DNA from: Sialis fuliginosa | Lineage: Eukaryota > Arthropoda > Insecta > Megaloptera > Sialidae | Direction: 5' to 3' | Assembly (NCBI GenBank): GCA_961205875.1 | Contig: OY540813.1 | Location: forward strand, 2,761,001 to 2,825,000 | DNA length: 64,000 nucleotides | Shown: piece by piece, positions 4,035 through 44,534 of the stretch | Numbering within the stretch: the first letter of the stretch is position 1 | Layout: each line of letters opens with the position of its first letter | Notes under the pieces: model-generated | Told to the model about the DNA's origin: nothing | Seen by the model: only the letters and a program-made list of their open reading frames with translations | Database searches by the model: none | Translations under genes and position numbers: made by a program

Positions 4035-4139
4035 AAAGCCGACTTGGCTGTCGGTTCCATGACGATCAACTACGCCAGAGAGAGTGTCATCGACTTCACC
4101 AAGCCCTTCATGAACTTAGGGATCAGTATTCTTTTCAAG
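4035..4139 (+). CDS. Glutamate receptor exon, end of ligand-binding lobe S1
   Basis: This 35-codon, phase 0-0 exon is bounded by a CAG acceptor and a GTCAGT donor. It encodes [18 protein letters not shown] followed by [17 protein letters not shown]. It holds the Thr and Arg of the T-x-x-x-R pattern (TINYARE) that binds the glutamate alpha-amino and alpha-carboxyl groups in this family. It joins directly to V-P-T of either alternative pore exon. Confidence 0.93.
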
Positions 4140-10100: not shown

Positions 10101-13100
10101 ATAGGTAACTATCGTTTGTGAAACTGGGCATCGGTTATACTATTATATTTTGTGTGAATTTACGATAATCAACAAATTATTGAAAATTCGTTTTTACATA
10201 ATATATATACAGGGGGGGGGGGGGGCGTGAAATGGAAATACAGGTCCGCATTTGAAAAACTTTGGGAAAGGCTGATGTATCGTAAAATAAAGCCTTTTTA
10301 AGTATTTTTAAGCGCTGAAAACGAATATGACAATTAAAAAATGTATATCAATTTTGGTAGCCATTTTTAACCAAATCGAATGAATTATTTTCGTAGATCG
10401 GACTTTTGCTACAATTTACATTTTTTCGAATTTCTGTACAACTACTTTTAAGCGAGTTATTTGCGATCAAAACAAAAAAACACGCTTAACTTTAAATGCT
10501 TATAACTAGGGAACAACTGATCATAAAAAAAATCTAAGGGCAGATTTGGAAAGCTATTACAAAAATCGTTCATAAGATTTGATCTAAAAAAAATATCACG
10601 GCCCATAGAAGCTCCCATAATTATTGTAATTTTTTTTTAAATCAACAAACATTTTTATTTTCAAATTCGTTTTATCAATTTCACAAGATAAACCCATAAG
10701 GTAGTTACGAAAGATAAAAACCCACAATCCCAGGTCCCGACAGACAAAATGTCTACTCTATTCACGTTCCTGAAACCTCTGGACAAGGAGATCTGGCTGA
10801 CGGCCGCAGCTGGATTCTGCTGCGTTGCCGTCACCCTGCTAATAATCGCAAGATTTACGCCGTACGAGTGGGTGGACCCACGGCCCTGGAAACCGGCCTA
10901 CTGCAGGGTTAACCAGTTCAATGCATCGAACAGTTTGTGGTTCGTCGCGGGCACCCTGCTCAGACAGAGCTCTGGGGTCAATCCGCAGGTCCGGCTTACG
11001 TCGTTCCAAAAAGGAATTTGGTTACATCAAATCCAGGAGTTTTGTAGATTTGAAGTAATATCTTCTTTCCCGTTAATCCTACGACCACAATAGTTATTAT
11101 CAATATTATAGAAAATAAAATTTCCTACAATTTTGTTTCCAAACTTAATTTTATAGATTGGATAGTTTTTGGCCCATAGACGTACAAAGAAGATTTTTTT
11201 TTTAACTATCAATTTATACTTAATTATATCATATTGACTTTATCCCGCTGTAGGTCAAAAACTACCCAACCTATAAAAAATCTGTAAGAACCAAAGTTGT
11301 AGACAATTTTCTCTTCTATAACAATGATTTACTATTTTAATCATAAAACCAACCGGAAATAATATATTACCAACAACAACAAAAAAAAATCCCGCGTTTT
11401 TTCACCAAGATCAAAAACTACGTCATAATTTTTAATTTTAAAACTGCTGGATTTATTGTAAAAAAAAATACCTATATACTGGACTATGCATAATAATTCG
11501 ATCGTTCAGAAGCCAAACTGTTTTAATTACACTACTATCGCAAAAAGTTTAACAGCAAACATTTTTTTTTTAATTATTTGTACCGCATTCACATTATTAA
11601 AATAATTTTACTATTTCACTGTTTGTCAAAAACGGACTAAGTGGGGGGGGGGGGGTGCCTTAGGCTCTAGTGCTAAATAAAAACTTTGTCAGATTTTTAA
11701 AAGTGAAAAAATATACCAAATATTTTTTTGGGAAAACCAAACCCGCCACTGCTGTTTCTCGCTTGAAATTAAACATCAATAAATGATTTATTAATCTAAT
11801 AAATATTATAAGCAGACAGACTTTCATTCAATATTTATCAAAACAAAAGATATTAATTCATTCTAACATCTCATATAAATTGTTTATAAAATATAAAATC
11901 ATCAATATTCTTTCGTGTAGTTACTCGTAATAGCTTCTGAATAGGTCAATATATTATTCATAGTAACTAATTAATGTACATATGATTTCTAGTGCAATGG
12001 ATCTATGTGTATATATATGTATAATATTGTATAGTATATGTACAAATGTAAATACGTACATACAAATACTTGGTAGCAATGCTATGCATAATGAAGAGGC
12101 ACTCGTGATGGCTGATTAGGCTTTAGGCCTCTAGAGGCGCTGCTGTTTGTCAATATATGTGCCTCATTATCACAGGCTATAAAAAATAACATTATAAATA
12201 ATAAGTTCGTATATATTTGGTAGAAGATATCGAAATTTTGTTTATTTTTCAGAATTTTTTGACATGTGATTTCTAAACTGACAATTGAGGGGGGGGGGGG
12301 TAAATGAAGATCACTAAATAGCTCAAAGGCCATTTTAAATTTATATTTATCTGCATGGTTTCAATGTATTTTGAATATAATTAAAATTTAGATTAAAAAA
12401 TAATTTTAAAATTTCTTCTGCCAAATAAGTATACAATAAATAAATGTAAAAAAATAAATTGATATTTTAATTTTAAACATAATTATAACACTTAACCCTT
12501 TTCACTACAAAATAAAATGGTACGCACATAATAGGGTTTTTTTTAAGTACAATATAAAATTTAAAAAAATCTAGTGTTCGTTATAATTTTCATTGAAAGT
12601 ACTAATTAAAAGCTATAATCAGGATTTTTTTCAGATTTTTTGCATCGATAATTTAGAAATTATGAGAAACACTGAAAATGACGTAAAAAAGCAAATATAT
12701 CTTGACTGAAGGGTTAAAATCAAAAAGTTCTAAAACCTTTTTTGTTGCATTTTAAGAGACCTATCTATAGACACCCCACTCAATAAAAAAGTAAAAAAAA
12801 AAAAAAGTAAAAAAAATTGAGTACACTTTTCAGTTTATGGAAAGGGAGATCCAAAAAAATTCTTTTTTAATCTTATCATATACATGATAAAATGGGAGGG
12901 CTATAACATACAGACAGACAGACAGATCAAAACTAGATAAATTTATCAACACAACAAATACCTTTGTTTATTATTCGAAAACAAACAAGTCCCAAGGACA
13001 ATAAAACAATAAAAAAAAACTTATTTTTATGCCTTTTTTCAACAAATTCAACTTGTTCATAGTAATAAGCACTCAATCATTGTAAATGACTCTACATCTC

Positions 13101-16100
13101 TATATTTAGACTGAACGAAAGAAAAAAGGAGGTTGTAGACACTCAGCTTAATCTATGGACGATTTAACCCTACGGTCAATTAAATTTGGAATGGAGTCTT
13201 TGCCGAAGGGGGGAAAGCTGTAACAATATCCTGATTTAGATTTTAACGTCGTTACGAGTATTTTTTGGGAAAATTGTATTCCAATTTTGTGGTGTTGTTA
13301 TACAATTTCGATAATGGAATCTGTTTAATAATAGTGTATAGAATGGCTCAGAAGAAACGTTTACACACTATTTCTTTACGACTCTTTCTTACATATGATT
13401 TATCTGAACGAAAAAAAATTTACAGTCATTTAAAACTTCTATAGGGTTCTCCATGTTAATGAAACGATATGCATATTGATGATTTATTTAATGGTACACT
13501 CTGTATATTTTTTATATACATATATTTATTACTAACTTAAGAATACCAACTGTCATAATATATCAAATACAAAATTCTAAGTTACTTAGACTCTAATGAA
13601 TGCTATGAAAACACGTGTAAGTCTAAAACTGTTACAATTTTTATGGTTAGGGGATTATTATTTGATAATAATGTACGAACAGTCTATACGAAATAAAAAT
13701 GTATCTATCTAATATGTATATTGTATAAATTGTATACAGGGTGTTCACCAGAATCGAGTGATCATTGTTAACTTTGTTATTATTGGAGTTAGAAGATCGG
13801 TTAAAGGGACAAAGAATCAGTATTTTTCTGTGATGAATAATGGTGGTGTAAAAAAAATGTCGAACTTAAGAGACACATTTAAATATAACTTTTTTTTAAA
13901 TGGAATGACCTGAATATTTCGATATTTTTTATTAATTTTTTTAATTTGTTTTTTATTCATTTTACCACCATGCACGTACTATACTCTTATAAAAAGAACA
14001 TTCTCAGCTATAAAATCCAATAATAATATACAGGTTATTTCATTTAAAAAAAGTTATATTTCAAGGTATCTCGTAAATTCGACATTCGATTGTTTTTTTG
14101 ACACAAAATAGTATTTTTTAAAATAGTATACAGTGTATTCCAAGTTGATTAAGACATAAGAAATTTTACATGGGGATAATTAGAAATGTTGTAGTAACCT
14201 TTGATCGAACTTAACGATGTGTGATTGGTGCATTTTGAAATGCCGCCTCGAAACTAACTGATAAATTTTAAATTAATCAACAGTATTTTGTTTTCAACTT
14301 TAGTAATGAAATTAAAGTAAGCATCCTAGATAAAATAATAATAATATTTTTTGGCAGATACTTATACATTTGAAAACAAAATGCTATTGACTATTTTATA
14401 AAATTTTGTGGCGGCATTTCAAAATGCACCAATCACACATCGTTAAATTCGATCAAAGGCTACTACAACACTTCTAATTGTCCCTATGTTAAATTTCCTA
14501 TGGCTTAATCAACTTGGAATACACTGTATAAAAAAATAGTACATAAACAAAGTTAGCAATGATCACTCGATTTTTTCAACATCCTGTATATTTCTCATTT
14601 CGATTCGAGCAGATAATTTTTTATTATAAACTTTCTTTCGCTAAATAAAGAGCCATCGATAAATCACCATATATAATTTATATACACATTAAAAAATAAA
14701 TAACTGATAAAGAAAATATACCAATGTACTTATTGTTAATTACAAGACCCGTATTATGTGTATCTATATTAATTTTTAATTTCATTTTCATTTGAAAAAA
14801 AAACTTTCTTTTTACTTTTATTTCTTATTTATAGGATTATAGGTCACATTTATAAAAGTTCTATTGTATTTCACATGATATATGTTTGACTGTATTCATA
14901 TCAAACCTTTAAAAGCTTTCCTATTACAGTCGACTCTCGATAACTTGACACTCGATAATTTTTTTCCGGCCTTTTGAAAAACACTCGATAAATTGAAAAA
15001 AATCCATGTATCATCGTCCCCTCGGTAATTTGAATTTGTAGTAAGGGCATTCTAATGATTATTTTGCAATTGTGTGTTAATTTTTCTTTGACAGTGAATA
15101 ACGCGGACAAATAAAATCGTACGGAGATGAAAAAGAAAGCATTTTCAAGAAAAAAAAACAAGCTTTCGAACGCTTACATTGAATTTTTCCTTTAAAAAAA
15201 AATTACAACTCGTATATGCTTTTAAAGTTTATAAAAAAATAAGAGATAATTTTTCGAATTCTTTAATCCCTTGGCACAAAGTGACAGAGGATAGTAAAAA
15301 AATGAACTTTTGACTTAAAAACTAGAAAGTGCAAGCTTTCAAATGAGCTTTAGATCATGCAAATCTAATCATTTTTTGCGGAGATATAACTGTTTGAAAA
15401 TTTGAAATTTTTTTTGTTTTTCATCCGGTGCTATTTTTGACTTTTTTTGAAAAAAAAACATTTACCTATCATTAAAGGTTCCAACGAGCCAGCCGACGCG
15501 TCTGTTCAGCTTCATGAACCCGCTGGCGGTTGATATTTGGCTGTACGTGTTCGCTGCATACGTGCTAGTCTCTATAACGATGTTCGTTGTAGCGAGATTC
15601 TCACCGTATGAGTGGCACAATCCGCACCCGTGCGATTTCGAGAACGATCTCGTTGAGAACCAGTTCTCTCTGTCCAACAGCTTCTGGTTCACGATCGGCA
15701 CACTCATGCAGCAAGGATCTGACCTCAACCCGAAGGTACCGTCAAATGGTTTGTGTATATATTTACATGGGCACCTAAAAATAAACCTTTTTTTTAAACT
15801 CTCATATCTCTGATATTACTTATCGAATCGGTGATATAAAATATGTTTTGGAATCCACATTTCAATGCCAAAATATTATGTGTCTTGTAATTTTTTGATA
15901 AAATACACCATTTAAAAGATATTTTTTAAATTAAAGTACTTAGCAAAAATATTTTGCAGTTACCAACTGTTAACATTTGAAAAACACTCGTATTTTCGGT
16001 ATTAGTTATCGAATCGGTGATATCGAATATGTTTTGGAATCCTTATTTCAATGCCTAAATATTACGTCACTTGTAATTTTTCGATATAATACACCTTTTA

Positions 16101-22100: not shown

Positions 22101-25100
22101 GAAATTTCTATATGGACTGAATAATGAGATTTTTTACAAATTATGGAAAATATAATATATATTAAAAACTGATGACCTTTTTTTTTTGTCATACCGACTG
22201 AAATTTCAGATTTTATTTGGACTATAGAAAAATAAAAACTTGAAGAGCTTTTTTTTTTAGTCGCGTTACTCATTTTTTATTTCCCTATTTTTTTTTTTTT
22301 TAATATACTATATTAAACTAAAAAAAATCTAGAGTCCAATAACAGATATTTTTCCGGAAAGTCGCGGGGCCCGTAGCATTTGCTACTCCTGCTACGTTGT
22401 TAATCCGGCCCTGCGTACATATATGAGCGCTAATACCTTAAATCAGTGAGTGCTGACATAATTATTTAAATAAGAGATACACGTTTGATCAAATAACTTA
22501 CAAATATATATATGTGTAGGTAATTACATGTTTACGCACATGCATGAATATTAATTATATCTACTACAGTTCTTTGATCTCAAAGACCGCATTGTGGAGA
22601 CAGATGGAGTCGTATTGGAGCTATGACGACTCTGTAAGATGAGACGCATTTAACCGTAATTAGAAGCAATTGTATCTGTGTTCAGTCGAAATTGTTTTTG
22701 CAATTAAAATACACTTTAACACTAGAAAGACGGGAAAATCTACGGCGACCAGTCAAATGACTACAAATTTAGTAAATATCTTTTTTTATGAGTGGCGAAA
22801 AAAATTTAAAGTAAAGAACTAAAACAAGATCTAATTTTAATATTCACACACAATTTTTACATTTCATCTTCGGGTATATTTTGCAAAATAGAAAGTATTT
22901 CGTTATCTCGAAGCCCTCGAGACATTTTTTCACAAATTACTCACAATAATATTGATCCACAATTACAGGCGGTCGAAACTATACTGACCACTCCTTTGAC
23001 TGATAAAATAAAAGCAATTCATATACGTATTTATTGTTGTACCCTCTCAACAACAATTAAAAACATACAACAATTAAAAACATTTATCAGATCATAACCG
23101 TCAAAAGACCGCCGCCGTCTTTGTCGGTATATCAATATTTTAAACAATAAAGAAAAGACATGTGAATTATTTTGATACATAGTATCATTTAACTACTAGT
23201 ATTAATAAAAGTCACAAAGTCTCAGTACGGTAAGTCAAAGAGTTTTTGAATTATTCAATATTGAAATTGAAATTACCGTCAAATGACTGCTCCCGTCTTT
23301 CTAGTATTAATTGCTACAGACAAACAAATATACTTGTGAAACACATAACCCATTTTTTTGGAGAGGGGAGTCCGAAATCATCTTCGGATATTAAAATTCA
23401 TAATTAATAATAATCGGAGATATTTTAGAAAATTCCAATAAATTTTGGGGAAACTGTATTTTCATTTTTTTTTCAACTTTTTTCAAATTATTTCGATGTA
23501 AAATACCAGTTTTATGATTAATTATTTTTTGCAGATTACAGAAATCTATAAATATTGGGTCTGATTCTTCACTAGAAGTTCATCCTATCACCGCTAGATG
23601 GCAATACATATACAATTACTTTAAAATACTTCTCATCTTGTCTGTTTTTGCTTTATATTGATTGTTGGTGTCTGATGTTGTCTCACACTGTCTGACAGTC
23701 TGTTATGTATCAAGCCTAATATATTATTTTGAACTCAAAAGGCTACTTCTACGCGCATTGTCGGAGGTATCTGGTGGTTCTTCACGTTGATCATCATCTC
23801 CTCTTACACAGCCAATTTGGCAGCGTTTTTGACGGTGGAACGAATGATCACACCCATAGAGAACGCGGAAGACTTAGCCAGCCAGACGGAGATATCCTAT
23901 GGAACGCTGGAAAGTGGAAGTACAATGACGTTTTTTAGGGTATGAAAAAATAGATTTTTATTCAGAAACCTGGATAAAACCTGAATACCCTAAATTTATA
24001 ATTCAAGTTAAACAGTAAATAACGAGTTTTGATTGGTTGATTCATGGAATTTCTGGTGGAATGTATTAGAAATTTAAAGAATGTCATTTTTTACACGTGT
24101 GAGGAAGTGAGAAAGAAGTAACCAGAAAAGGAAAGAAATTAGTGTTCTGGCAGAAATGCTCAACATGAAGTGAACATAAAAGTTATTTGGTTAGTCTGAT
24201 CACTAGTTTCTATCTCTTTCTAGTTAGTTCTTTCTCACTTACTTACACGCTTAAAAAATAACATTCTTTAAATTTCTGGTACATTTCACCAGAAATTCCA
24301 TGAATCAAGTCAGACGTAAACGCTCCCAATATTCACGCGGATTTTTTTATGCATTTTTTGTGGGGTATCAAATGAAAGCTAACAATTCAATGAATTTAAA
24401 TATGTAAACGTTTTGTTATTATTAATATATTCGTTTAACAAGATTTCGTAAACGAACGTGCCGAGTTGTATTTTCAGATAGTGGCGATAATTCTGATAAA
24501 AATTAATAAAAAAATATTGTTACTTTTCAATAAAATTCAAAAACAAACTTATTTTATTTTATTTCAAATTTTCTTCTGAATTTTATTCTTATTTTCGTGA
24601 ATTTTCAGAAACATTTTTATGCGATTTTCGGCCTATTTTCATTAACTGATTTATTTTACGCTGTTTTAGAAAATTACGATTTTTCATATGCAGTTTTCTG
24701 TGGAACGTATCTACCGCGTAAAAAGAGACCCTGCTGTATTTGTTTATTGAAAAAAATCGTATTTTATGTACATATAGTGTAGTAGTGTATGTAACAACAT
24801 ACAACATACTCCTCAACTCCTCCGTTTTGCGAGCTTAATGCCCGGTATTATAAAGGACCTAACAAAATTTGTTAGCTAGCAATTACATTCATATGGGGTA
24901 TTAATACTGTACTAGTATCTATGGATTAGTTATGGAATTTAGAGCAGTGACACTTCAATTAATTGTAACACAGTTGGCATCTTTGACCGTACAAAATAAT
25001 TTTCATAACATCACCACTGTTTTAATACCGTTTGTATTTACCTTCAACGCGTGCGCGAAACTTGTCAAAGTCATCAACAAACTCCAAAAGAACTGTCATA

Positions 25101-27812
25101 TATGTTTGATACCTCAGTTGAAAGTGTTTGTTAGCTAACAAATTTGTTAGGTCCTTTATGATACCGGACATAAGGGAAATTCTAACAAATTCCGTATTAT
25201 ACTTGTTTGAACTCATATTATCTATAGTCCAATCATCAGAAGATTTGAGCTAGAAAAAAATGAGGGAGTACATAATTTTCAGGGTAAGATGTCAATAAAT
25301 ATTTAAAACTAATGACCTTTTGTGGTTATTTAGGACTCAATGATAGAAACGTACAAAAAAATGTGGCGATTCATGGAGAACAAGAAACCCAGTGTGTTCG
25401 TGCCGACGTACGAGGAAGGCATCCAGAGAGTCCTGGAGGGGAACTACGCCTTCCTCATGGAGTCCACCATGCTCGACTACATCGTGCAGCGCGACTGTAA
25501 CCTCACGCAAATTGGCGGCCTTCTAGATACTAAAGGTTTCACATTTTATAGGCCGATTTTTAAAATAGTGGTGTGTTCCTCACCCACATTAGCGCACGGT
25601 TGAAGTGAAACTTCTTTTGTTTTTCTAATTTCTAAATTCTAATTTCAACAATCAAACTATATTCTTTTGAAATAACATATAGGTTTTCAATTAGGACCGT
25701 GGGCATATATGAGTTAATAATCAAAAGTATTCTTTTAACCAGTGGCGCAGGAGCCCGGGGAGGCAGGGGGCAAGATCATTCCAATTCACTAGTCTGGCTA
25801 AAGAAGTTTCACTTCAATCTTCAAAGATTTAATACATTTCTAGGTGCATTTTTTGAGTGTATAAGTAACTTAATGATTTCTGGTTAAAGGTTATGGTATT
25901 GCTACACCGATGGGCAGCCCATGGCGCGATAAGATATCTCTAGCAATCCTCGAACTGCAGGAGAAAGGCGAGATACAGATGCTGTACGACAAGTGGTGGA
26001 AGAACTCTGGAGATACGTGCGTTCGGACGGAGAAGGGTAACAAGGAGTCAAAGGCTAACGCGCTGGGTGTCGACAACATCGGCGGGGTGTTCGTCGTTCT
26101 CCTATGCGGCCTTGCGTTTGCTGTCATTGTCGCAATATTCGAGTTCTGTTATAACTCCAAGAGAAGTGCCCTTTCGGAGAAGGTATGTAGGGTAAGCGAG
26201 ATAGTTTATGGCCCTTATTAACAGATATATTTCATAATAGGAAGAAATTTACACGCATTTTACTCTTTAGGAATTATTTTTCAGTTGAGATAATTGAAAA
26301 AGTGACCTACAAATTATTTAAACTTTAAACAGTATTCCAAAAATTCATATTTGATAGAACTTCCTCCTTTGCTTCAGACACGTTAAATTTTTCGTAAGAC
26401 AATCATTATTGCTTTTTTGATGTTTGTCACTGTTGCTAGTTTTAAAGTTGCAATGGCTGAAAAACAAAAAAAGGTGTTCCTTAACCGTCGCAAAGAAACG
26501 AGAAATCATTAAGTATGTAGACGAGAATCCTACAACGAAAAAAATAGACATCGCTACATTCTTACCTTGTTATAACGAATTGTAGACCAACCTAATCTTT
26601 ATATAACAAACCTCACAGTAACAAATTACTTGGTATAACGATTATTTTCTACTTCCCTTCAGTTTTGTTATATCGAGGTTGCACTGTATATTTTTTTATT
26701 CGAACCGGAACGAAAAAAAAACGGTTCGAAGCCTTGATTTTTTCTATCTAATTTCAGAGGAGTATAGTCCAGCAGTCACTGTGCGCGGAGATGGGCTCCG
26801 AGCTGTGTTTCGCACTTAGGTGTCGCGGGTCCAGACAGCGGCCCGCGTTACGCCGCGCGTGCTCCAAGTGCGTGCCGGGCACCACGTACGTGCCCGCGGG
26901 TTTTGACGTGCCGCCCCCGCCGCCTCCACACCCGCCGCCACCCCCGCACCCCCATCTGCACTCGCGAAACGGCATGCGAATGTCGCACGTAAGTATTGTT
27001 AACTCATTACGACATATAACTAAATTAATTGTATTGTTTTCTCACCAAATCCAGGAAAAAAACTTTCAGTGGCGTAACCATGAATTTTAGGGAGGGGTGT
27101 GATTTTTTTATGGGAGCCATTGACATTGAACATGTATGTTTTACATACAGTGTATTCCAAGTTGATTAAGGCGGCTATTACACTATCAAATAAATATGAT
27201 AAAATTTCTTTGATCAAAGAAATATGACAGTGTAATAAGTCAACTTTTATAATATTTACCTTCATAATATTTCTATGATCATAGTTAATGACAGTCTCTT
27301 ATATTTGATCAAAGTTTTTTGACGTCAAAAACAAAATGGCGACTACCAAGTTATCACTAACAGTTACAGTTATATAACTATTAATATATGAATATCAACT
27401 AAATCCACTATTATATGATAATCTTCTTATTGATTATAAAAACCACAATACACGGTTGTAAATTCAAACCTCGATCGCGTCTATTGACGAACATCCACGC
27501 ACTGATAATCAAAATGCACCAAAAAAAAGAAAATATCCCTATATAATATTGAGAAAATATTATCAAATATTTAATGTAGTGTAATAGAACAAAATCTCAT
27601 ATTTTATCAAAGAAATATGATCAAATCTTTGTCAAAGATCTTTGACATATTTATTTGATAGTGTAATAGCCGCCCAAGACATACCATTTCTGGTTGTATT
27701 ATAGAAATTTTGTTCGATCTATTCTTTTTTTCAGAGAGACAGTTTTGGAGTGCCGGTAGAATTTCATCATCACCATTTACATCAAACGGACTATGACAGT
27801 AGTTTGTCATAA
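4035..27812 (+). CDS. Kainate-type ionotropic glutamate receptor subunit (3' part of gene)
   Basis: This is a ligand-gated cation channel subunit of the postsynaptic or neuronal membrane. The exons read are 4035-4139, then either 10734-10988 (exon A) or 15478-15735 (exon B), then 23742-23939, 25334-25535, 25890-26182, 26758-26988 and 27735-27812 (TAA). All joins keep frame and use GT-AG sites. With exon B the window encodes 454 residues: the end of ligand lobe S1, M1, the pore loop, M3 with [15 protein letters not shown], lobe S2 ([22 protein letters not shown]), M4 and a Pro/His-rich tail. The spacing and motifs are those of kainate rather than NMDA receptors. The amino-terminal domain and start of S1 lie upstream of the window. 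A polyadenylation signal AATAAA is at about 27864. The exons are much richer in GC than the introns. The exact subunit orthologue cannot be named by eye. Confidence 0.93.
5100..5480. repeat. Dispersed repeat, related to 12580-12940
   Basis: Both copies share TTATAATTTTCATTGAAAGT, then CTGAAGGGTTAAAATCAAAA, a run of AT-rich text and a final string of ACAGACAGACAG. The shared order and GACA tail suggest remnants of one non-LTR or other interspersed family. No protein remains. Confidence 0.6.
5628..5700 (+). repeat. Dispersed repeat shared with 29641-29716
   Basis: Both copies carry ATGCAATTAAAT, GTCAGATTAGTTATTC and TAAAAATGTGTATTATA in the same order. The second copy ends exactly where a TA-flanked MITE fragment begins. 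Confidence 0.6.
6650..6780 (+). repeat. Dispersed repeat shared with 59810-59885
   Basis: Both carry GCGTTTTTCTCGAA, CACTTTTTTTCGGTTG or a close variant, GGGAAGCAGAAA and ATTCTAATCAACC. This is an interspersed family without recognisable coding content; one copy is in the receptor gene, the other in the sprint gene. Confidence 0.6.
7731..8785. mobile_element. 1.05-kb foldback element with GGTAC...CCAGTACC ends
   Basis: The left arm (GGTACTTGCACCAG, CCAGTGTTGGACA, TTAATTAAATGTACTAAA) is repeated inverted at the right end, and the arms continue inward for hundreds of bases (GATGTCAAAATGGTGGACA, then CATTACTGG motifs). It is a long palindrome of a non-coding DNA element. A related truncated copy is at about 20964-21360. 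Confidence 0.75.
8888..9013. mobile_element. Palindromic element carrying a hammerhead-like motif
   Basis: The outer arms CTTAACCACAATAAAA and TTTTATTGTGGTTAAG are inverted repeats. Inside lie a second palindrome (AACAGTTCCAG, CTGGAACTGTT) and the hammerhead core described separately. This looks like a fragment of a retroelement family that carries such ribozymes, such as Penelope-like elements; no reverse transcriptase is present. Confidence 0.65.
8915..8958 (-). ncRNA. Hammerhead ribozyme-like motif
   Basis: On the minus strand the bases read CTGATGA (8956-8950), a stem with loop (GGACTTC, TTGT, GAAGTC), then GAAA (8932-8929), ACACGTGT and GTC followed by GAGTG. These are the conserved core parts of the hammerhead ribozyme in correct order: CUGAUGA, stem II, GAAA, short stem III, and a GUC cleavage triplet at 8923-8921. 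Stem III is only ACAC/GTGT with no loop, as in ribozymes proposed to act as dimers. Stem I pairs by only a few bases (CTC with GAG), so activity is uncertain. Confidence 0.7.
9586..9782 (+). mobile_element. Short retroelement (SINE or RTE 3' end)
   Basis: It begins CTGTTACCCGCGCCTTCGTT and includes AGCTATCTCCCTGCCAAATT and AGTTTAGCCGTGAAAAGGTA, ending near TTATAATATTAGTATGA. The same ordered blocks recur at 31090-31530, 45070-45350 and, inverted, 46760-46975. This is a typical insect non-LTR tail family. Confidence 0.7.
10734..10988 (+). CDS. Alternative M1/pore exon A of the glutamate receptor (Arg at Q/R site)
   Basis: This 85-codon, phase 0-0 exon starts V-P-T-D and ends G-V-N-P-Q. It encodes the S1-M1 linker, M1 (about [20 protein letters not shown]), the ARFTPYEW motif, and the re-entrant pore [17 protein letters not shown]. 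It aligns end to end with exon B: ARFxPYEW, NQF, SNSxWF, GTLxxQ and NPx are shared. The Q/R-site codon at 10962-10964 is AGA (Arg), and the acidic residue four positions later is Gly. There is no stop, and the reading frame and GC content look like selected coding DNA. The acceptor has a poor pyrimidine tract, as regulated exons often do. Use of this exon needs RNA evidence. Confidence 0.85.
13733..14590. mobile_element. Inverted-repeat element, TACAGGGTGTTC ends, interrupted by a MITE
   Basis: The left end (TATACAGGGTGTTC, ATCGAGTGATCATTG, TAACTTTGTT) recurs inverted at the right end (AACAAAGTTAGCAATGATCA, CTCGAT, CATCCTGTATA). The inner third is a separate MITE (14131-14526), so the outer element is the older insertion. 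Confidence 0.75.
14131..14526. mobile_element. TA-flanked foldback MITE (family copy 1)
   Basis: The termini CAGTGTATTCCAAGTTGATT and its inverse are flanked by TA on both sides, as for Tc1/mariner insertions. Long arms contain GATGTGTGATTGGTGCATTT, TGAAATGCCGCC and the inverse GGCGGCATTTC. Further copies lie at 34146-34505 and 36364-36695, with fragments at 27148-27169 and 29717-29783. Confidence 0.85.
15478..15735 (+). CDS. Alternative M1/pore exon B of the glutamate receptor (Gln at Q/R site)
   Basis: This 86-codon, phase 0-0 exon encodes V-P-T-S, M1 ([20 protein letters not shown]), ARFSPYEW, and the pore [19 protein letters not shown]. The Q/R-site codon at 15709-15711 is CAG (Gln), and the Asp four residues later is present. 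This is the canonical calcium-permeable form. The GTACCG donor follows NPK. The acceptor (ATTAAAG) is weak. Including A and B together would keep frame but would duplicate M1 and the pore, so mutual exclusion is expected. Confidence 0.93.
15800..16330. repeat. Three-unit tandem repeat, about 187-bp period
   Basis: The block GTTTTGGAATCC recurs at 15844, 16031 and 16218, each preceded by TTATCG(A/G)AT and followed by CTTGTA(A/G)TTTTT, then TTTAAAAGAT(A)ATT and, in the first two units, TTGCAGTTACCAACTGTTAA. The units have diverged by a few per cent or more. It starts within 100 bp of pore exon B. Confidence 0.85.
16975..17142. mobile_element. Small foldback element, GGCGTA...TACGCCA ends
   Basis: The left end AATGGCGTACTAGTGGGGGG and right end GTTACGCCACTGG are related inverted termini. 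The short G-rich left part and C-rich right part are typical of the other small elements here with TGGCGTA-like ends (17958-18134, 34796-34945, 35206-35347). Confidence 0.6.
17400..17655. mobile_element. MITE of the CCCGGTATTATAAAG family, divergent copy
   Basis: It contains GCGGGGTATCAAA, TACCACTGCTTTAA-like text, AGTAGAAATCAG (inverted), CAGATAGCGTTAACTTGGC and TATAATACCAGACATAA. These blocks match 30366-30652 and the arms at 46978 and 50696. Confidence 0.6.
17958..18134. mobile_element. Small foldback element with an 11-base G run
   Basis: The ends GCAGTGATGCACCC and GGGTGCGCCACTGC are inverted repeats. A G run lies at 17973-17983. Confidence 0.6.
18641..18778. repeat. Near-perfect 38-bp inverted repeat with 62-base loop
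   Basis: The left arm begins GATCTTGGCTTCTGGGTGTA and ends CGATTTGGTC; the right arm is GACCAAATCG through CACCCAGAAGTCAAGATC. Only about two mismatches are seen. The loop contains GTGTGACGAAACGTTGGCC. The source element is not recognised. Confidence 0.75.
19195..19660. repeat. Dispersed repeat pair shared with 45449-45805
   Basis: Text such as TTTGCGCCGTCCACAGGTTT, AATTTTGGGACAATTAACTT, TAGGCCTGCGGGACCGAAAA and an (AAAAAT) tail is shared with the intron of the RING gene. The first part (19195-19420) is an inverted version of the second family segment. The A-rich tail suggests a SINE or LINE origin. Confidence 0.6.
20964..21360. mobile_element. Truncated relative of the 7731-8785 foldback element
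   Basis: It shares CCCAGTGTTGGA, TTTACATTGTTTCAAATTTT, TTTGTCCATTACTGG and GGTGCCAGTACCTTA with the longer element in the same order. Confidence 0.65.
21993..22413. mobile_element. hAT-like MITE, CAGGGCCGGATTA ends, perfect 8-bp duplication
   Basis: Ends CAGGGCCGGATTAA and TTAATCCGGCCCTG are inverted repeats. The flanking octamer CGTACATA is identical on both sides. The arms share GGGGCCCGTAGCA. A 12-base G run is at 22066-22077. A decayed relative is at about 51702-52019. Confidence 0.85.
23742..23939 (+). CDS. Glutamate receptor exon, M3 and start of S2
   Basis: This 66-codon, phase 0-0 exon begins [19 protein letters not shown] and contains [15 protein letters not shown], the hallmark of the M3 gate in all ionotropic glutamate receptors. 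It continues into S2 with [15 protein letters not shown]; the GST motif contacts the ligand carboxylate in this family. Confidence 0.95.
23940..25333. other. Glutamate receptor intron with MITE copy
   Basis: No exon is seen. The MITE at 24837-25173 fills the middle. Near 24061-24290 a diffuse inverted pair (AAATTTAAAGAATGTCATTT and its near inverse) marks another foldback repeat. Confidence 0.6.
24837..25173. mobile_element. MITE, ATGCCCGGTATTATAAAGG termini
   Basis: The ends ATGCCCGGTATTATAAAGGA and CCTTTATGATACCGGACAT are imperfect inverted repeats, followed inward by CTAACAAATTTGTTAG on both sides. Copies with the same internal text (TATGGATTAG, TTTAGAGCAGTGACACTTCA) lie at 61275-61578 and 63299-63586. 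Confidence 0.8.
25334..25535 (+). CDS. Glutamate receptor exon, lobe S2
   Basis: The exon begins in phase 0 and ends in phase 1. It encodes [18 protein letters not shown] through [18 protein letters not shown], then [20 protein letters not shown]. The Glu of MEST is at the place of the family's ligand-amino-binding acidic residue. It is flanked by TTTAG and GTTTCA. Confidence 0.94.
25890..26182 (+). CDS. Glutamate receptor exon, end of S2 and M4
   Basis: The exon starts by completing the Gly codon begun in the previous exon. It encodes [20 protein letters not shown], then WWKNSGDTC, then [20 protein letters not shown], which starts M4. It ends in phase 0 at SEK with donor GTATGT. Confidence 0.94.
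26183..26757. other. Glutamate receptor intron, hAT-like repeat end next to acceptor
   Basis: The right terminus of the CGGTTCGAAGCC family ends at about 26736 (ACGGTTCGAAGCCTTG), 21 bp before the exon. The left terminus is not seen. Confidence 0.6.
26758..26988 (+). CDS. Glutamate receptor exon, cytoplasmic tail
   Basis: This 77-codon exon of phase 0-0 follows M4. It is rich in Arg and Cys, then in Pro and His; proline runs PPPPPP and PPPPP alternate with His. Such runs are typical ligands of SH3, WW or EVH1 domains, but no specific partner can be named. The acceptor is only 21 bp downstream of the right end of a hAT-like repeat. Confidence 0.85.
27170..27674. mobile_element. 505-bp TAA-flanked MITE, copy 1
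   Basis: Termini GGCGGCTATTACACTATCAA and the inverse GATAGTGTAATAGCCGCC. The flanks are TAA on the left and CAA on the right, consistent with a 3-bp TAA target as used by PIF/Harbinger transposases. The interior includes TGACGTCAAAAACAAAATGG. It sits inside the end of a TA-flanked MITE (27148-27169). Confidence 0.8.
27735..27812 (+). CDS. Glutamate receptor last coding exon
   Basis: The exon reads [20 protein letters not shown] then DSSLS and TAA at 27810-27812. It has a good CTTTTTTTCAG acceptor. The intron before it holds a 505-bp TAA-flanked MITE. Confidence 0.82.
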   Translation, partial: RDSFGVPVEFHHHHLHQTDYDSSLS

Positions 27813-28830
27813 AATAATGCTCAAATTATTTAAATATACACATACATACACACACCGCCATTAAATAAAAAAAAATCATCTGTATGTAATCAACATGTCT
27901 AGAATAATCGAATACATAGATTAAATTAACATTATACTGCAATAGGTATGATGCCAGTAACAAAGTATCACTGAAATTACGATTTTAAATAATGAAATAA
28001 GTTAAAGAGATTCTAAAAAAAGTATTTATTTTTATATTAAAAGCGAGATTAATATGATTTTTATTAAAATAAAAACACAAAATACAGCAATCCGCCATGT
28101 TTGATAAAATGCCAGACAGAGTGGATGACGTCACGACTACGCAAACGTCATTTTTGTTTCATTTATATCTGCACTGTTTATAAATTATTTTGTGGTTTTA
28201 AATTATCAATTTGCTCAGTTTTGTGTTACCAAAAGTAAAACCGAGGAACATTAGCGATGGAACAAGGATTTATTATAGTTGACAAGGAGTGTTTACATAG
28301 ACGTGACGTCAAAAATACGCCATGACACCTGCGATTAAAATTAACATTTTAAATTATGTATATTATTAAAATATTAACGTAAAAAAAACACTTGATTGTA
28401 TATTTTTGTAACAAATATTATACTATTATACTATATTCACCATTCAGCGATAATGGAACTAGATTTTTCACCACACATTTTTCGATTTTTGCAAGTTTTG
28501 CAAATCTTAAAAAATGTGTACAGTTGTTTCTGCAACGCCCGTTAGTTACAATTATTTTGAATATTTCTTCACCGATTAAAAAAAATATAATGTAATCTAT
28601 GTATTCACTGATATTATAAATAAAATAATTTTAAAATCCCGAACTAGAATATTTAGAAATGTAGTCAAGTAGGCTGTTTTGTATAGGTTGTATATCTAAT
28701 TTTGTTATTGTTGAACAAAGGTTTATAAGTATGCGATCGGAATATAAGCAGTACTATAAACCTGGTAAAAACATTAGTTTTAAATCTACGTTGAGATTTA
28801 AATATATATTTAAGTTGTATATATTATATT

Positions 28831-40210: not shown

Positions 40211-40594
40211 AACATTGATTTAAAAAAATGTAAATTCCGTCTGTATTTATGTATGCTTTAATAAAAAATAATGTATTAATGTAATTATATTCATAAAAAT
40301 GTACTTAATTTATATTTATGTTACAAATAAATCAATTTTATTATATTTTTCCACTCATTTTAACCCGCACAAACTACCCACATGACTTCTAATTAGCTTC
40401 AGGTTGTTTAAACTCAAAAGTGAGGCTAAATTCATACATAATGAATTGTCAACAGCACGTGTTTTTGATAAATACACGAAAATATATATTAATATAGTTT
40501 TTTAAATATATGTCTATATTATTTATCTAAAATCGTAAGTATCAATGAATTATTTCGACCAAATACAAGTTTTTGACGTTTTAATTTTTAGGTT
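40211..40594. promoter_or_regulatory. HGSNAT 3' end and WDR3 upstream region
   Basis: These 384 bp must hold the end of the HGSNAT transcript (AATAAA at 40260) and the WDR3 promoter and 5' UTR. No TATA box can be called with confidence in such AT-rich DNA. TTTTTAG just before the WDR3 ATG could be a splice acceptor. Confidence 0.5.
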
Positions 40595-43500
40595 ATGGGT
40601 CTCACAAAACAATATCTACGTTACGTGCCCAGTGGAACTTTCAATATTATTGCCAGCCCCAAATGCAATGCTGTTTTTGTTACTCTCGAAGGCCAGGAAG
40701 GTAGATTTGTAGCTGCTGGGGCTTCGGAACATGTCATTATATGGGATATGCGTTTAGGAGAAAAAGTACCGCTCTCATGATTATAATAAAAATTTAACAG
40801 AAAGATTAACGAATATTTATTTCAGGCACAGCTACTGTCTGGTGATAAGTCTGAAGTTACTTGTCTGTGCACTAGCCCAAATAAAAACAACCTCGCTGTT
40901 GGATATGAAGACGGAACAATACATATTTTCGATCTACGTTCTGGAGAGATAGTTACAATATTCTCTGGACATAAGTCGGCTGTTACTAGTCTTGCTTATG
41001 ACCAGTTTGGTCACAAACTTGCGTCTGGTTCTAAGGTAAGCGGAAATGTATTTTTTTACCTCAAAAATTACTAAAAAGTATATTTTAAAACAATTTTCAG
41101 GATACAGAAATTATTGTGTGGGACACAGTCTCAGAGACAGGCTTGCACCGTTTGTCCGGACATAAAGGTGTCATAACGCAACTAGTGTTCATGGCAACAC
41201 AGAATATCCTTATATCCAGCTCGAAAGACAGTTTTGTTAAATTTTGGGATTTAGATTCCCAGTATTGTTTCAAAACTTTAACAGGACACAGAACAGAAGT
41301 GAGTGAATAATATAAACTGTTATATATCACATTCTAACTCGGTCTTTCTCATAGGTTTGGGGCTTGGTCTTAATGAAAGATGAACGGTATTTGATAACTG
41401 GTTGTAGCGATACCGAATTACAAGTTTGGAAAATATCAATCAAAGATACCGATCAAGAGAATAACTTAAATCCAATTAAGACTCCTCTAGAAATTGACGG
41501 ATTTGAAATTGGCCCTGAAGATGATGCAAATGTAAGTTATTTTATCTTTAGTCTGAAATATAATATGTAAATAAATACTCTCTTTGTTTCAGTACCCTTT
41601 ACAGTGTCACAAAGCAGGGTCCCTGCTGCGTTCAGGCAAAGGTCGTGTAGTGTCCCTTACGTCTGACTCTTCAGGACAAGTTATCGGATGCCATGGAACA
41701 GATTCACAGCTAGAAATGTTTCTGTTTTATACGGACGAAGAAGCAAACACCAGGCATAAGAAACGAATCAAAAAACAACGCAAGAAAGAAAGGTACGAAT
41801 AATTTTATTTCAAAGGGAATATATTTTTAATCTTTTTAATTAATTTTCAGTAATAAACCAGAAGAATCGAATGAAACTCTTACAAATGATGAACTTACTT
41901 TACGTGACGAAATAAAACGGCTTCCAACGATCAAACTCTCGACTAAGCCCAAATCCCTAAGCCTAATCCGAGGAAAAGGGGGAGTATTGAGAGTCACAAC
42001 AGTCTTAAACAATAACACACTCGAACTATACTCACTATCAACATCAGATAAAGAAACAGAGATCAAATGTCTGCGCAGTATCACAAACCAGGGTCACCAT
42101 AGTGAAATTAGAAGCGTGTGCTTCAGCAGCGATAATTTGGCTATTGTTTCGGGGAGTGCCGAAAGTGTGAAGCTTTGGAATAGGCCGTCGCAGTCTTGTC
42201 TGAGGACTGTAGAAACTGATTATGTCCTTTCAACGTGTTTTGTTCCAGGAGATAGACATGTTTTGGCCGGAATGAAGGATGGGAGGTTGTTGATTATTGA
42301 TATAGCAGCCGGTGATATTTTGGAAGAGGTACCGGCGCATAAGGATGAACTGTGGACAATTAGTGTTACACCAGATCAGGTATTTTTTTAATTAATATAA
42401 TCTATCGGTTTTACGAATTTTGTATTTTAACAATCGGATTTTTTTTAAGAGGTTATGTTTAAGTCATTTTTATTAGATTTATTGCAGGGATTCTTTAAGT
42501 GTTACATATCACTACGAAGCCCAAGAGTTGTTCTATAATTTAAAATTTAGCTGATTTAAATATCTAGTTTTGTTATCGAAATATTAGTTCTTAAAATCAA
42601 GCTTAACTTTTTCTTTGTAGATTTAAGAATAAGTTACGTTTAAGTCATTTTTAATAAATTTACTGTAGGGATTCTTTAAGTGTTACATATAATTATAAAG
42701 CCCATGAGTTGCTCTATAATTGAAAGTTTAACTCATTTAAATATCTTTTTTTGTTATTGAGATATTAGCTTTTGAAATCGAGCTTAATTTTTTTTCTCCA
42801 TAGAGTTGAGAACATGTTACTTTTTTCAGCGTGGTTGTGTGACTGGAGGCAGTGACAATACAGTTAAATTCTGGCAGTTTGAATTAATCATTGACGAAAA
42901 GAGTGAAAGTAAAGCCAAAGTCCTATCTTTACTTCACACTCGTACGTTAAAATTAGAAGAAAACGTCCTTGCAGTTAAAATCTCTTCAAATAATAAATTC
43001 ATAGCAGTTGCACTTTTGGATTCTACTGTGAAGATATTCTTTGTTGATTCTTTCAAGGTAAGTTATTTTACTTACAAGATGTAACGATTTGATTTTTACT
43101 ATTTTTTTTATAAAATTTTGTATTATTTTTCAGTTTTTCATTTCACTTTACGGTCACAAACTTCCAGTTTTGTGCATGGATATATCCGACGATTCCTCGT
43201 TGATAGTGACAGGTTCTGCCGATAGGAACATCAAAATCTGGGGTTTAGACTTCGGCGATTGTCACAAATCATTATTTGGACACGACGATTCCGTCACTGC
43301 GATACAATTTGTCCCACACACTCACTATTTCTTCTCTTGCGGCAGAGACGGCAAAGTTAAAGAATGGGATGCAGATTCTTTCGATAAGATAATAACTTTA
43401 CAGGGACATTCTGGAGAGGCCTGGTCTTTGGCTGTAAGTCCCGACGGAAAACACGTCGTCTCTAGCGGCTCTGACAAAGTTTTGCGACTGTGGGAACGGA

Positions 43501-44534
43501 CGCAAGAGACGCTGGTGTTGGAAGATGAAGCCGAAGAGGAGAGAGAAAGGAACGAAGAGCTGGCAACTGGTGAGGAAACCGTGGTTCCAGGGAAAGGTGT
43601 CGTCGTTCTGCCATCTAAGAAAACTGTCGGCAGTGAGAAAGCTGTAAGTTATATACTTAGGGGTGCAACTAGTAAACTTGAAATTTTAATACACAAAACT
43701 AGATTATGTAACACACATTTTAAGACTAATTTGGAATTTCTGCAATTTATAATTCCAGAGTACGTTATGTTTATTTGATTGTAGGCTGAATCGATTCTCG
43801 AATGTCTCGAAATCGTAAACGAATACAAAGCCCAGCTACAAGAACACAAAGAACTAGCGGCCGTATCACAATTGAAGCCTCCTCTACCACCTTTACCTCC
43901 GATAATGCAGGCATACCAAGTCAAGACATCTGAAGACTACATAGTTGAAATATTGAAACGGATAAGATCAAGGTAAGAATATTGAAGCAAATATTGTTAA
44001 AGTTTGGTTTAACGTAAATTTATTTTCAGTGACCTAGAAGAAGCGTTGCTTCTTTTACCATTTTCAAACGCTTGTGAACTTCTACGATGGTTAGCGATAC
44101 TAACGACACATAACGACCATGTAGAGCTTATAAATAGGGTCTCTATATTCCTGTTGAGGGTGCATTCTGGTCCAATATCTTCCACCAGTTCTCTACTGCC
44201 CGTTTTGAAGACTTTACGTAGGAATACAACACAACATACTTCACAATTAAGAGTAAGTATTGTTTAATAAAAATAAAATAAAATAAATAAACAGTAAATT
44301 TAAAAATGATTGTACTTTTTTTGATTTGGTCTCAGAGTTTTAACTATTATTTATTTTTTATTTCAGGACCAAATTGGATACAATTTCTATGGCTTCGAGT
44401 TTCTGCAGAGGGAAATAGAGAATTTAGAAGGTGTGCAGTTGTTCCGAGACGCGACTATTGAGAAGAAGTCGCGTGAAAAGAAACGAAAGCAAAGAGAAAA
44501 GAGAAAACGTGCTCTTGTAGTTCTCACTTCTTGA
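40595..44534 (+). CDS. WDR3: WD-repeat protein 3 (UTP12-like SSU processome subunit)
   Basis: This is a nucleolar protein of the U3 snoRNP/UTP-B complex acting in 18S rRNA maturation. Eleven exons: 40595-40765, 40826-41035, 41101-41298, 41355-41531, 41593-41792, 41851-42379, 42830-43057, 43134-43643, 43785-43972, 44030-44252 and 44367-44534. Together they give 933 residues, close to the family's usual length (about 940). The start MGLTKQYLRYVPSGTFNII is typical of the family. Repeated GH...WD units span two propellers, e.g. FSGHKSAVTSLAYDQFGHKL, then SGSKDTEIIVWD, and SLYGHKLPVLCMDISDDSSL, then TGSADRNIKIWG. A Lys-rich linker (KKRIKKQRKKER) and the C-terminal Utp12 domain (from about YIVEILKRIRS) follow. 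An AG directly upstream of the ATG may be the acceptor of a 5' UTR exon. Polyadenylation signal at 44569. No oddity in the coding sequence. Confidence 0.95.
42453..42800. repeat. Two-copy tandem duplication in a WDR3 intron, about 182-bp unit
   Basis: The text CGTTTAAGTCATTTTTA (42635 copy; TGTTTAAGTCATTTTTATTA in the first) is followed in both by GGGATTCTTTAAGTGTTACA, AAGCCCA(A/T)GAGTTG and TTATTGAGATATTAG or close variants. The copies are about 85-90% alike by eye. Confidence 0.75.

Follow-up and report, generated by a model that had tools for sequence, protein, structure and literature searches.

Whether an AMPA or kainate receptor lets Ca2+ pass is decided by one pore residue, Gln or Arg at the Q/R site, and vertebrates choose between the two by RNA editing. 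Here we ask if an insect receptor gene could make the same choice by splicing. The gene lies in a stretch of 64,000 nucleotides from Sialis fuliginosa (the window, C5:2761001-2825000), and the genome searched with it comprised 392 Mb in 20 contigs. We found that the gene carries two homologous pore exons, A and B, which hard-code Arg and Gln, respectively, at the Q/R site. Our best explanation, to which we give a probability of roughly 0.6, is that A and B are alternative pore exons of a kainate-type subunit and act as a splicing switch that alters Ca2+ permeability and polyamine block together. Transcription of exon A, the use of one exon only, the permeation properties and the heteromers are parts of this explanation that we infer.

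Two homologous pore exons in one receptor gene

Exons A and B share a single intron, between the end of an upstream constitutive exon and the M3 exon (Table 1). Exon A is 255 nt long and encodes 85 residues, exon B is 258 nt long and encodes 86; both are free of stops, have phase 0-0, and are preceded by AG and followed by GT. The two are identical at 39 of 86 positions, with one gap. The Pfam profile Lig_chan (PF00060; M1, pore loop, M3) matched exon A (E-value, 2.5e-12), exon B (2.1e-19) and the M3 exon, all above the Pfam cut-off, and kainate receptors were the top solved-structure matches for exon A and for exon B alike. A first-pass annotation of this DNA had described homologous exons with identical 0-0 phases at these positions, with Gln and Asp at the Q/R and +4 sites of exon B and Arg and Gly at those of exon A, and all of this was borne out. 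A chance or artefactual origin of the pair was considered and is ruled out by the homology, the phase and the paralog pair described below. A profile built from six pore sequences found no further pore copy, decayed ones included, on either strand of the window (next best E-value, 4.4).

The selectivity filter reads L-M-Q-Q-G-S-D in exon B and L-L-R-Q-S-S-G in exon A. We take the Q/R and +4 assignments to be right because the HMMER alignment places R-Q-S-S-G of exon A opposite Q-Q-G-S-E of kainate receptors. Exon A also has Ser at +2, where Gly stands in the paralog exon A' (below) and in the nine other AMPA/kainate-type QQG/AQG pore exons that we read. Q/R-site editing makes Arg from a genomic Gln codon, and here the genomic codon is already AGA. 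The earlier claim that AGA cannot be obtained from CAG through adenosine-to-inosine editing is correct, since an edited CAG would give CGG. A structure model of exon A (mean pLDDT, 58.8; pTM, 0.30) has helices at residues 11-41 and 64-79 and was too weak for a structure search.

Judged by its sequence, the window gene is an AMPA/kainate-type ionotropic glutamate receptor (iGluR) subunit that is nearer to kainate than to AMPA receptors. Exon B matched GluK2 with an E-value of 9e-34 versus 2e-22 for GluA4, and the S2 exon matched GluK4 with 6e-24 versus 1e-13 for GluA2; CG3822 was also among the matches of the S2 exon. The bipartite S1/S2 ligand-binding domain is present, with PF10613 matches upstream on C5, one of these inside the window, and with S2 matching kainate ligand-binding domains.

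Table 1. Exons and codons of the receptor gene, in window positions.
Feature	Position	Strand	Basis
Pore exon A (linker, M1, M2/pore loop; Arg at Q/R site, Gly at +4)	10734..10988	+	homology, Pfam, codon-position tests
AGA (Arg) codon at Q/R site of exon A; +4 codon GGG at 10974-10976	10962..10964	+	HMMER alignment
Pore exon B (same segment; Gln CAG 15709-15711 at Q/R, Asp GAC 15721-15723 at +4)	15478..15735	+	
Constitutive exon before the pore exons (S1 end, ...GISILFK; 3' phase 0; donor GTCAGT)	4035..4139	+	paralog match
M3 exon (SYTANLAAF), phase 0, acceptor partner of either pore exon	23742..23939	+	Pfam; paralog 90% identical
S2 exon (ligand-binding domain), 3' end approximate	25334..25535	+	kainate receptors are best solved-structure matches
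Open frame holding the exon for S2 end and M4; exon ends approximate	25877..26218	+	paralog comparison
Open frame holding the cytoplasmic tail exon; exon ends approximate	26752..27087	+	47-residue paralog match, 66% identical

A matching pair in a paralog, coding constraint and splice sites

The Pfam search of the genome gave 33 PF00060 places. The glutamate receptors and ionotropic-receptor-like genes of this genome, taken as a set, fit an insect or a near relative. The closest paralog found among them lies on the minus strand of C5 near 2.27 Mb, about 0.5 Mb from the window gene. Its M3 exon is 90% identical to that of the window gene and its S1 exon 65-67%, and its counterpart of the constitutive exon upstream of the pore exons is alike at 35 of 40 aligned residues (87.5%). 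We found that this paralog also has a pore exon with Arg at the Q/R site and Gly at +4 (R/G), exon A' (C5:2270698-2270955; L016:2798-3055, minus strand; filter F-L-R-Q-G-S-G), and one with Gln and Asp (Q/D), exon B' (C5:2268311-2269105; L016:411-1205, minus strand; filter L-M-Q-Q-G-S-D). Both have phase 0-0, and the R/G exon precedes the Q/D exon as it does in the window gene. In exon B', M1 and the pore loop are separated by 184 inserted in-frame codons, free of stops and rich in Ser and Arg (0 of 5000 shuffles stayed open). The insert may form a large loop on the cytoplasmic side or, possibly, be an in-frame intron that is retained. Outside this genome, none of 37 pattern matches in viral_contigs and 44 in genome_contigs, collections not meant for insects, was confirmed as a relative.

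In the final 15 codons, each exon clusters with its own type and not with the other exon of its gene. Identity is 0.71 for A and A' and 0.84 for B and B', versus 0.53 for A and B and 0.60 for A' and B', and the informative sites divide 10:1:1 in favor of grouping by type. Leu at -1, Arg at 0 and Gly at +4 are among the residues of this stretch that A and A' have in common and that neither B nor B' shares. The filter codons of A and A' are both CTC AGA CAG, those of B are ATG CAG CAA and those of B' ATG CAA CAA. Whichever history holds, the R/G filter was common to both loci and was kept. A convergent origin of the two R/G filters is disfavored by the shared codons, even if the remainder of the exon is a mosaic. 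A blastn comparison of the introns of the two genes gave many matches that look like dispersed repeats; at the pore exons only the exons themselves matched.

The R/G filter is confined to these two exons in our census of 11 AMPA/kainate-type pore exons (C9:17613177 and C7:6319825 lie outside the census, and L026 and L027 gave no match). The Q/R residue is Arg in 2 (A and A'), Gln in 7 and Ala in 2, and the +4 residue is Gly in 2 (again A and A'), Asp in 7, Glu in 1 and Asn in 1. A third gene on C9 near 13.17 Mb (L010:4912-5245, minus strand) has two pore exons, MQQGCD and MQQGSD, with a standard donor and acceptor; both have Gln at Q/R and Asp at +4, and they differ in Cys or Ser at +3. These two exons are 28 nt apart, a gap too short for normal splicing. 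Spacing alone should therefore prevent their joint splicing. Thus this genome has three receptor genes with a duplicated pore exon, and in two of them the copies differ at Q/R. As separate observations, two receptor genes about 20 kb apart on C9 (L012:3816-3962 and L013:3079-3270, plus strand) have Ala at the Q/R site (MAQGCD), and an ionotropic-receptor-like locus (L023) has Arg at the matching place.

Exon A is very probably coding, as judged from its composition and substitution pattern, although its openness by itself would not show that. The first-pass annotation had named the dN/dS of exon A as a check and its degeneration in close relatives as a refutation. Between A and A' we obtained a proportion of synonymous differences (pS) of 0.59, a proportion of nonsynonymous differences (pN) of 0.32 and a dN/dS of 0.36, and in this genome exon A is not degenerate; its frame is intact and its third codon positions changed faster than its second. 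On the branch of A, counted at sites where B and A' agree, differences fell on 21 of 69 first, 20 of 79 second and 25 of 48 third positions (rates of 0.30, 0.25 and 0.52; Fisher p 0.0038, second versus third). The GC content of exon A is 0.56, and 0.71 at third positions (GC3), amid introns with a GC of 0.29 in which no 255-nt stretch exceeds 0.46. When neutral evolution was simulated with all of the A-A' divergence placed on A, a mean of 3.9 stops arose (P of no stop, 0.017), and none of 2000 runs kept the observed amino acid identity or GC. With half of that divergence, the GC of A was reached in 0.35% of the runs.

Splice sites were scored against hand-collected iGluR exon sites of this genome, 24 acceptors and 23 donors of 26 each, a set that contains the sites of the window gene and the paralog themselves. 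Left out were the acceptors of the window exon GYGIATP and the L010 exon MMKELL, two donors of the window and one of L012, in which the expected place holds no AG or GT. Both acceptors had been called weak in the first-pass annotation, and this did not hold. The acceptors are middling, with 6 of 24 reference sites scoring lower than that of A and 9 lower than that of B; it is the donors that are weak, with one of 23 scoring lower than that of A (GTCCGG) and none lower than that of B (GTACCG). For A' and B' the corresponding counts are 6 and 2 among acceptors, and 5 and 0 among donors (GTACCA in B'). The first donor bases, GTACC, are common to B and B'. The acceptor of A is very poor in T (8%, versus a mean of 52%, across the 13 bases before AG). 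Weak donors fit regulated exons. As in mutually exclusive pairs, A and B are homologous neighbors, similar in length, identical in phase and compatible in their splice sites. Among nine pairs of flanks tested for RNA pairing, preA-preB, up4139-preA and up4139-preB beat all 12 block shuffles; because all three rest on A/T runs, we claim no docking/selector pairing.

Predicted permeation and known systems

We propose that a transcript would follow the exon ending at 4139 with either A or B and then continue into the M3 exon at 23742. The B isoform, with its ordinary Gln/Asp filter, would pass Ca2+ and be blocked by internal polyamines. In the A isoform, Arg at Q/R together with Gly at +4 would lower Ca2+ permeability and conductance, and the acidic ring underlying polyamine block would be removed. 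Because four Arg in one channel make for poor conduction, the A isoform would most likely occur in heteromers with B or other subunits. By analogy with known receptors, the A subunit is expected to be Ca2+-poor, to be insensitive to polyamines and to work in heteromers.

Published work on related receptors bears on each of these sites. In vertebrate receptors the change from Gln to Arg abolishes Ca2+ permeability (PMC8257547), and Q621 and the +4 residue E625 line the filter of GluK2 (PMC11599716). Changing the +4 Asp to Ala abolishes polyamine block with a small effect on divalent permeation, and four-Arg homotetramers are poorly conductive (PMC12226733). The first-pass annotation had assigned the +4 acidic residue a role in permeation; as far as PMC12226733 describes it, this residue matters for polyamine block and has little effect on the permeation of divalent ions. 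Its wider interpretation is supported in part: the interchangeable exons with hard-coded Q/D and R/G filters stand and are joined by the paralog pair, apart from the weak acceptors and with the role of +4 narrowed mainly to polyamine block.

The proposed switch resembles vertebrate Q/R editing of GluA2, GluK1 and GluK2 in that the same residue changes from Gln to Arg and one gene gives two forms (PMC8257547). It differs in that Arg is encoded by a genomic AGA in a separate exon, so that the choice would be made by splicing, and in that the exchange also takes in +4 and roughly half of the M1-pore segment. AMPA receptor flip and flop are likewise homologous alternative exons within an iGluR gene (PMC8257547). 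However, flip and flop belong to S2, close to M4, and control gating, whereas A and B hold M1 and the selectivity filter; and flip and flop are 115 nt long, so that nonsense-mediated decay should remove wrong combinations, while A and B are multiples of 3. Exons A and B share with the mutually exclusive exons predicted in Drosophila by Kassiopeia/WebScipio the preconditions of frame, splice sites and homology (PMC3923563), a paper whose main text makes no mention of glutamate receptors. The insect kainate receptors EKAR and KaiRID/CG3822 are of the same class by sequence, and the portions of PMC4382183 available to us describe no pore-exon choice for them. Both elements, mutually exclusive exons and a Q/R switch, are already known separately. 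We found no precedent for setting Q/R and +4 through exon choice in the literature covered, which excluded most subscription papers and automatic insect annotations, where such isoforms may be listed. If our explanation is true, having both versions in the genome as exons would be another way of making the same switch. It can alter neighbors such as +4 together with the Q/R residue and may be regulated by tissue via splicing factors.

Upstream of the window, the PF10613 search also placed a pair of S1 exons that belong to the window gene (C5:2751820-2752023, L031; C5:2753192-2753389, L030). Both have phase 0-0 and they are 53% identical; the paralog has one S1 exon listed for that part of the profile. 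The donor of the first of the two looks weak (CAC|GTTTGT). We hold it at a little short of even odds that two or more paralogous kainate receptor genes of this lineage set Q/R and +4 jointly via pore-exon choice, as a counterpart in splicing to the Q/R editing of vertebrates, and that in the window gene this could be combined with a choice of S1 exon to give four receptors from one gene that differ in ligand binding and permeation. The pairs in two paralogs, the constrained L010 pair and the S1 pair suggest that insect-type kainate receptors widely use exon choice where vertebrates use editing and gene families.

Points against the reading and alternative explanations

Several observations weigh against A and B being a permeation switch. 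In a placozoan receptor, Arg in place of the native Ser at this site gave more rectification (PMC12226733), so the effect of Arg depends on context. Neither spacing nor frame enforces exclusion, with 4,489 nt of intron between A and B and both exons multiples of 3. Exon A changed fast at its first and second positions too. Its openness is only mildly unlikely by chance, as 183 of 5000 letter shuffles stay open, and a neutral run with half of the A-A' divergence left no stop in 12% of cases (P 0.12). Lastly, in the part before the last 15 codons, A' is nearest to B (0.81) and only 0.60 identical to A. This makes the history a mosaic one, and some of the sequence of A' may have come by conversion.

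Exon A could be a real alternative exon whose Arg subunit serves mainly as a partner that conducts or traffics poorly, so that splicing sets the number of receptors or their surface delivery and not Ca2+ permeability. The poor conduction of four-Arg homotetramers, the poor expression of an S642R receptor (PMC12226733) and the Ser that exon A has instead of the +2 Gly all agree with this. Nevertheless we consider it unlikely, since the joint change of +4 and Arg suggests a tuned filter and not a loss, and the +2 Gly is retained in A'.

If A' gained Arg and Gly independently, or received them by conversion, the R/G form would not be an ancient trait common to the two genes. In the codons before the last 15, 15 sites group B with A', 5 group A with A' and 2 group A with B. 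Over their first 20 codons A' and B share about 93% identity, despite synonymous saturation in all four of the other exon pairs compared between the two genes (pS 0.83-0.99), and the GC3 of A' is 0.78 versus 0.29-0.42 in four other exons of the paralog. Part of the upstream pattern may come from chance agreement of two fast exons, A and B', and partial conversion or RNA-level selection is a possible source of the 5' likeness of A' and B. However, the GC3 of the paralog S1 exon is also high (0.68), several identical codon changes in the shared CTC AGA CAG are unlikely by chance, and conversion would still have spread or kept the R/G filter. We regard this account as improbable, on a par with that of a poor partner.

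More doubtful is that A is a relic of the exon duplication which is no longer spliced. A does diverge faster than B, and its T-poor acceptor and its GTCCGG donor would suit a relic. Against this stand the intact frame, the GC3 far above the GC of the surrounding introns, the slower second than third positions and the outcome of the full-divergence neutral runs, and the donor of B scores even lower than that of A. The inclusion of both exons, giving a subunit with two M1-pore units, would keep the frame across an intron long enough to splice, but it is very improbable, as the product would break iGluR membrane topology and the L010 exons lie too near each other for normal joining.

Two further features of the window lie behind the pore exons. 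Window positions 28001-28335 and L015:861-1259 (minus strand) match in several frames and on both strands, mostly at 80-95% in short translated pieces; this stretch lies behind the coding region in both paralogs and is either a conserved 3' region or a shared repeat. Positions 40592-43973 (plus strand) hold more open frames, with WD-repeat-like protein sequence, of what is apparently a separate gene.

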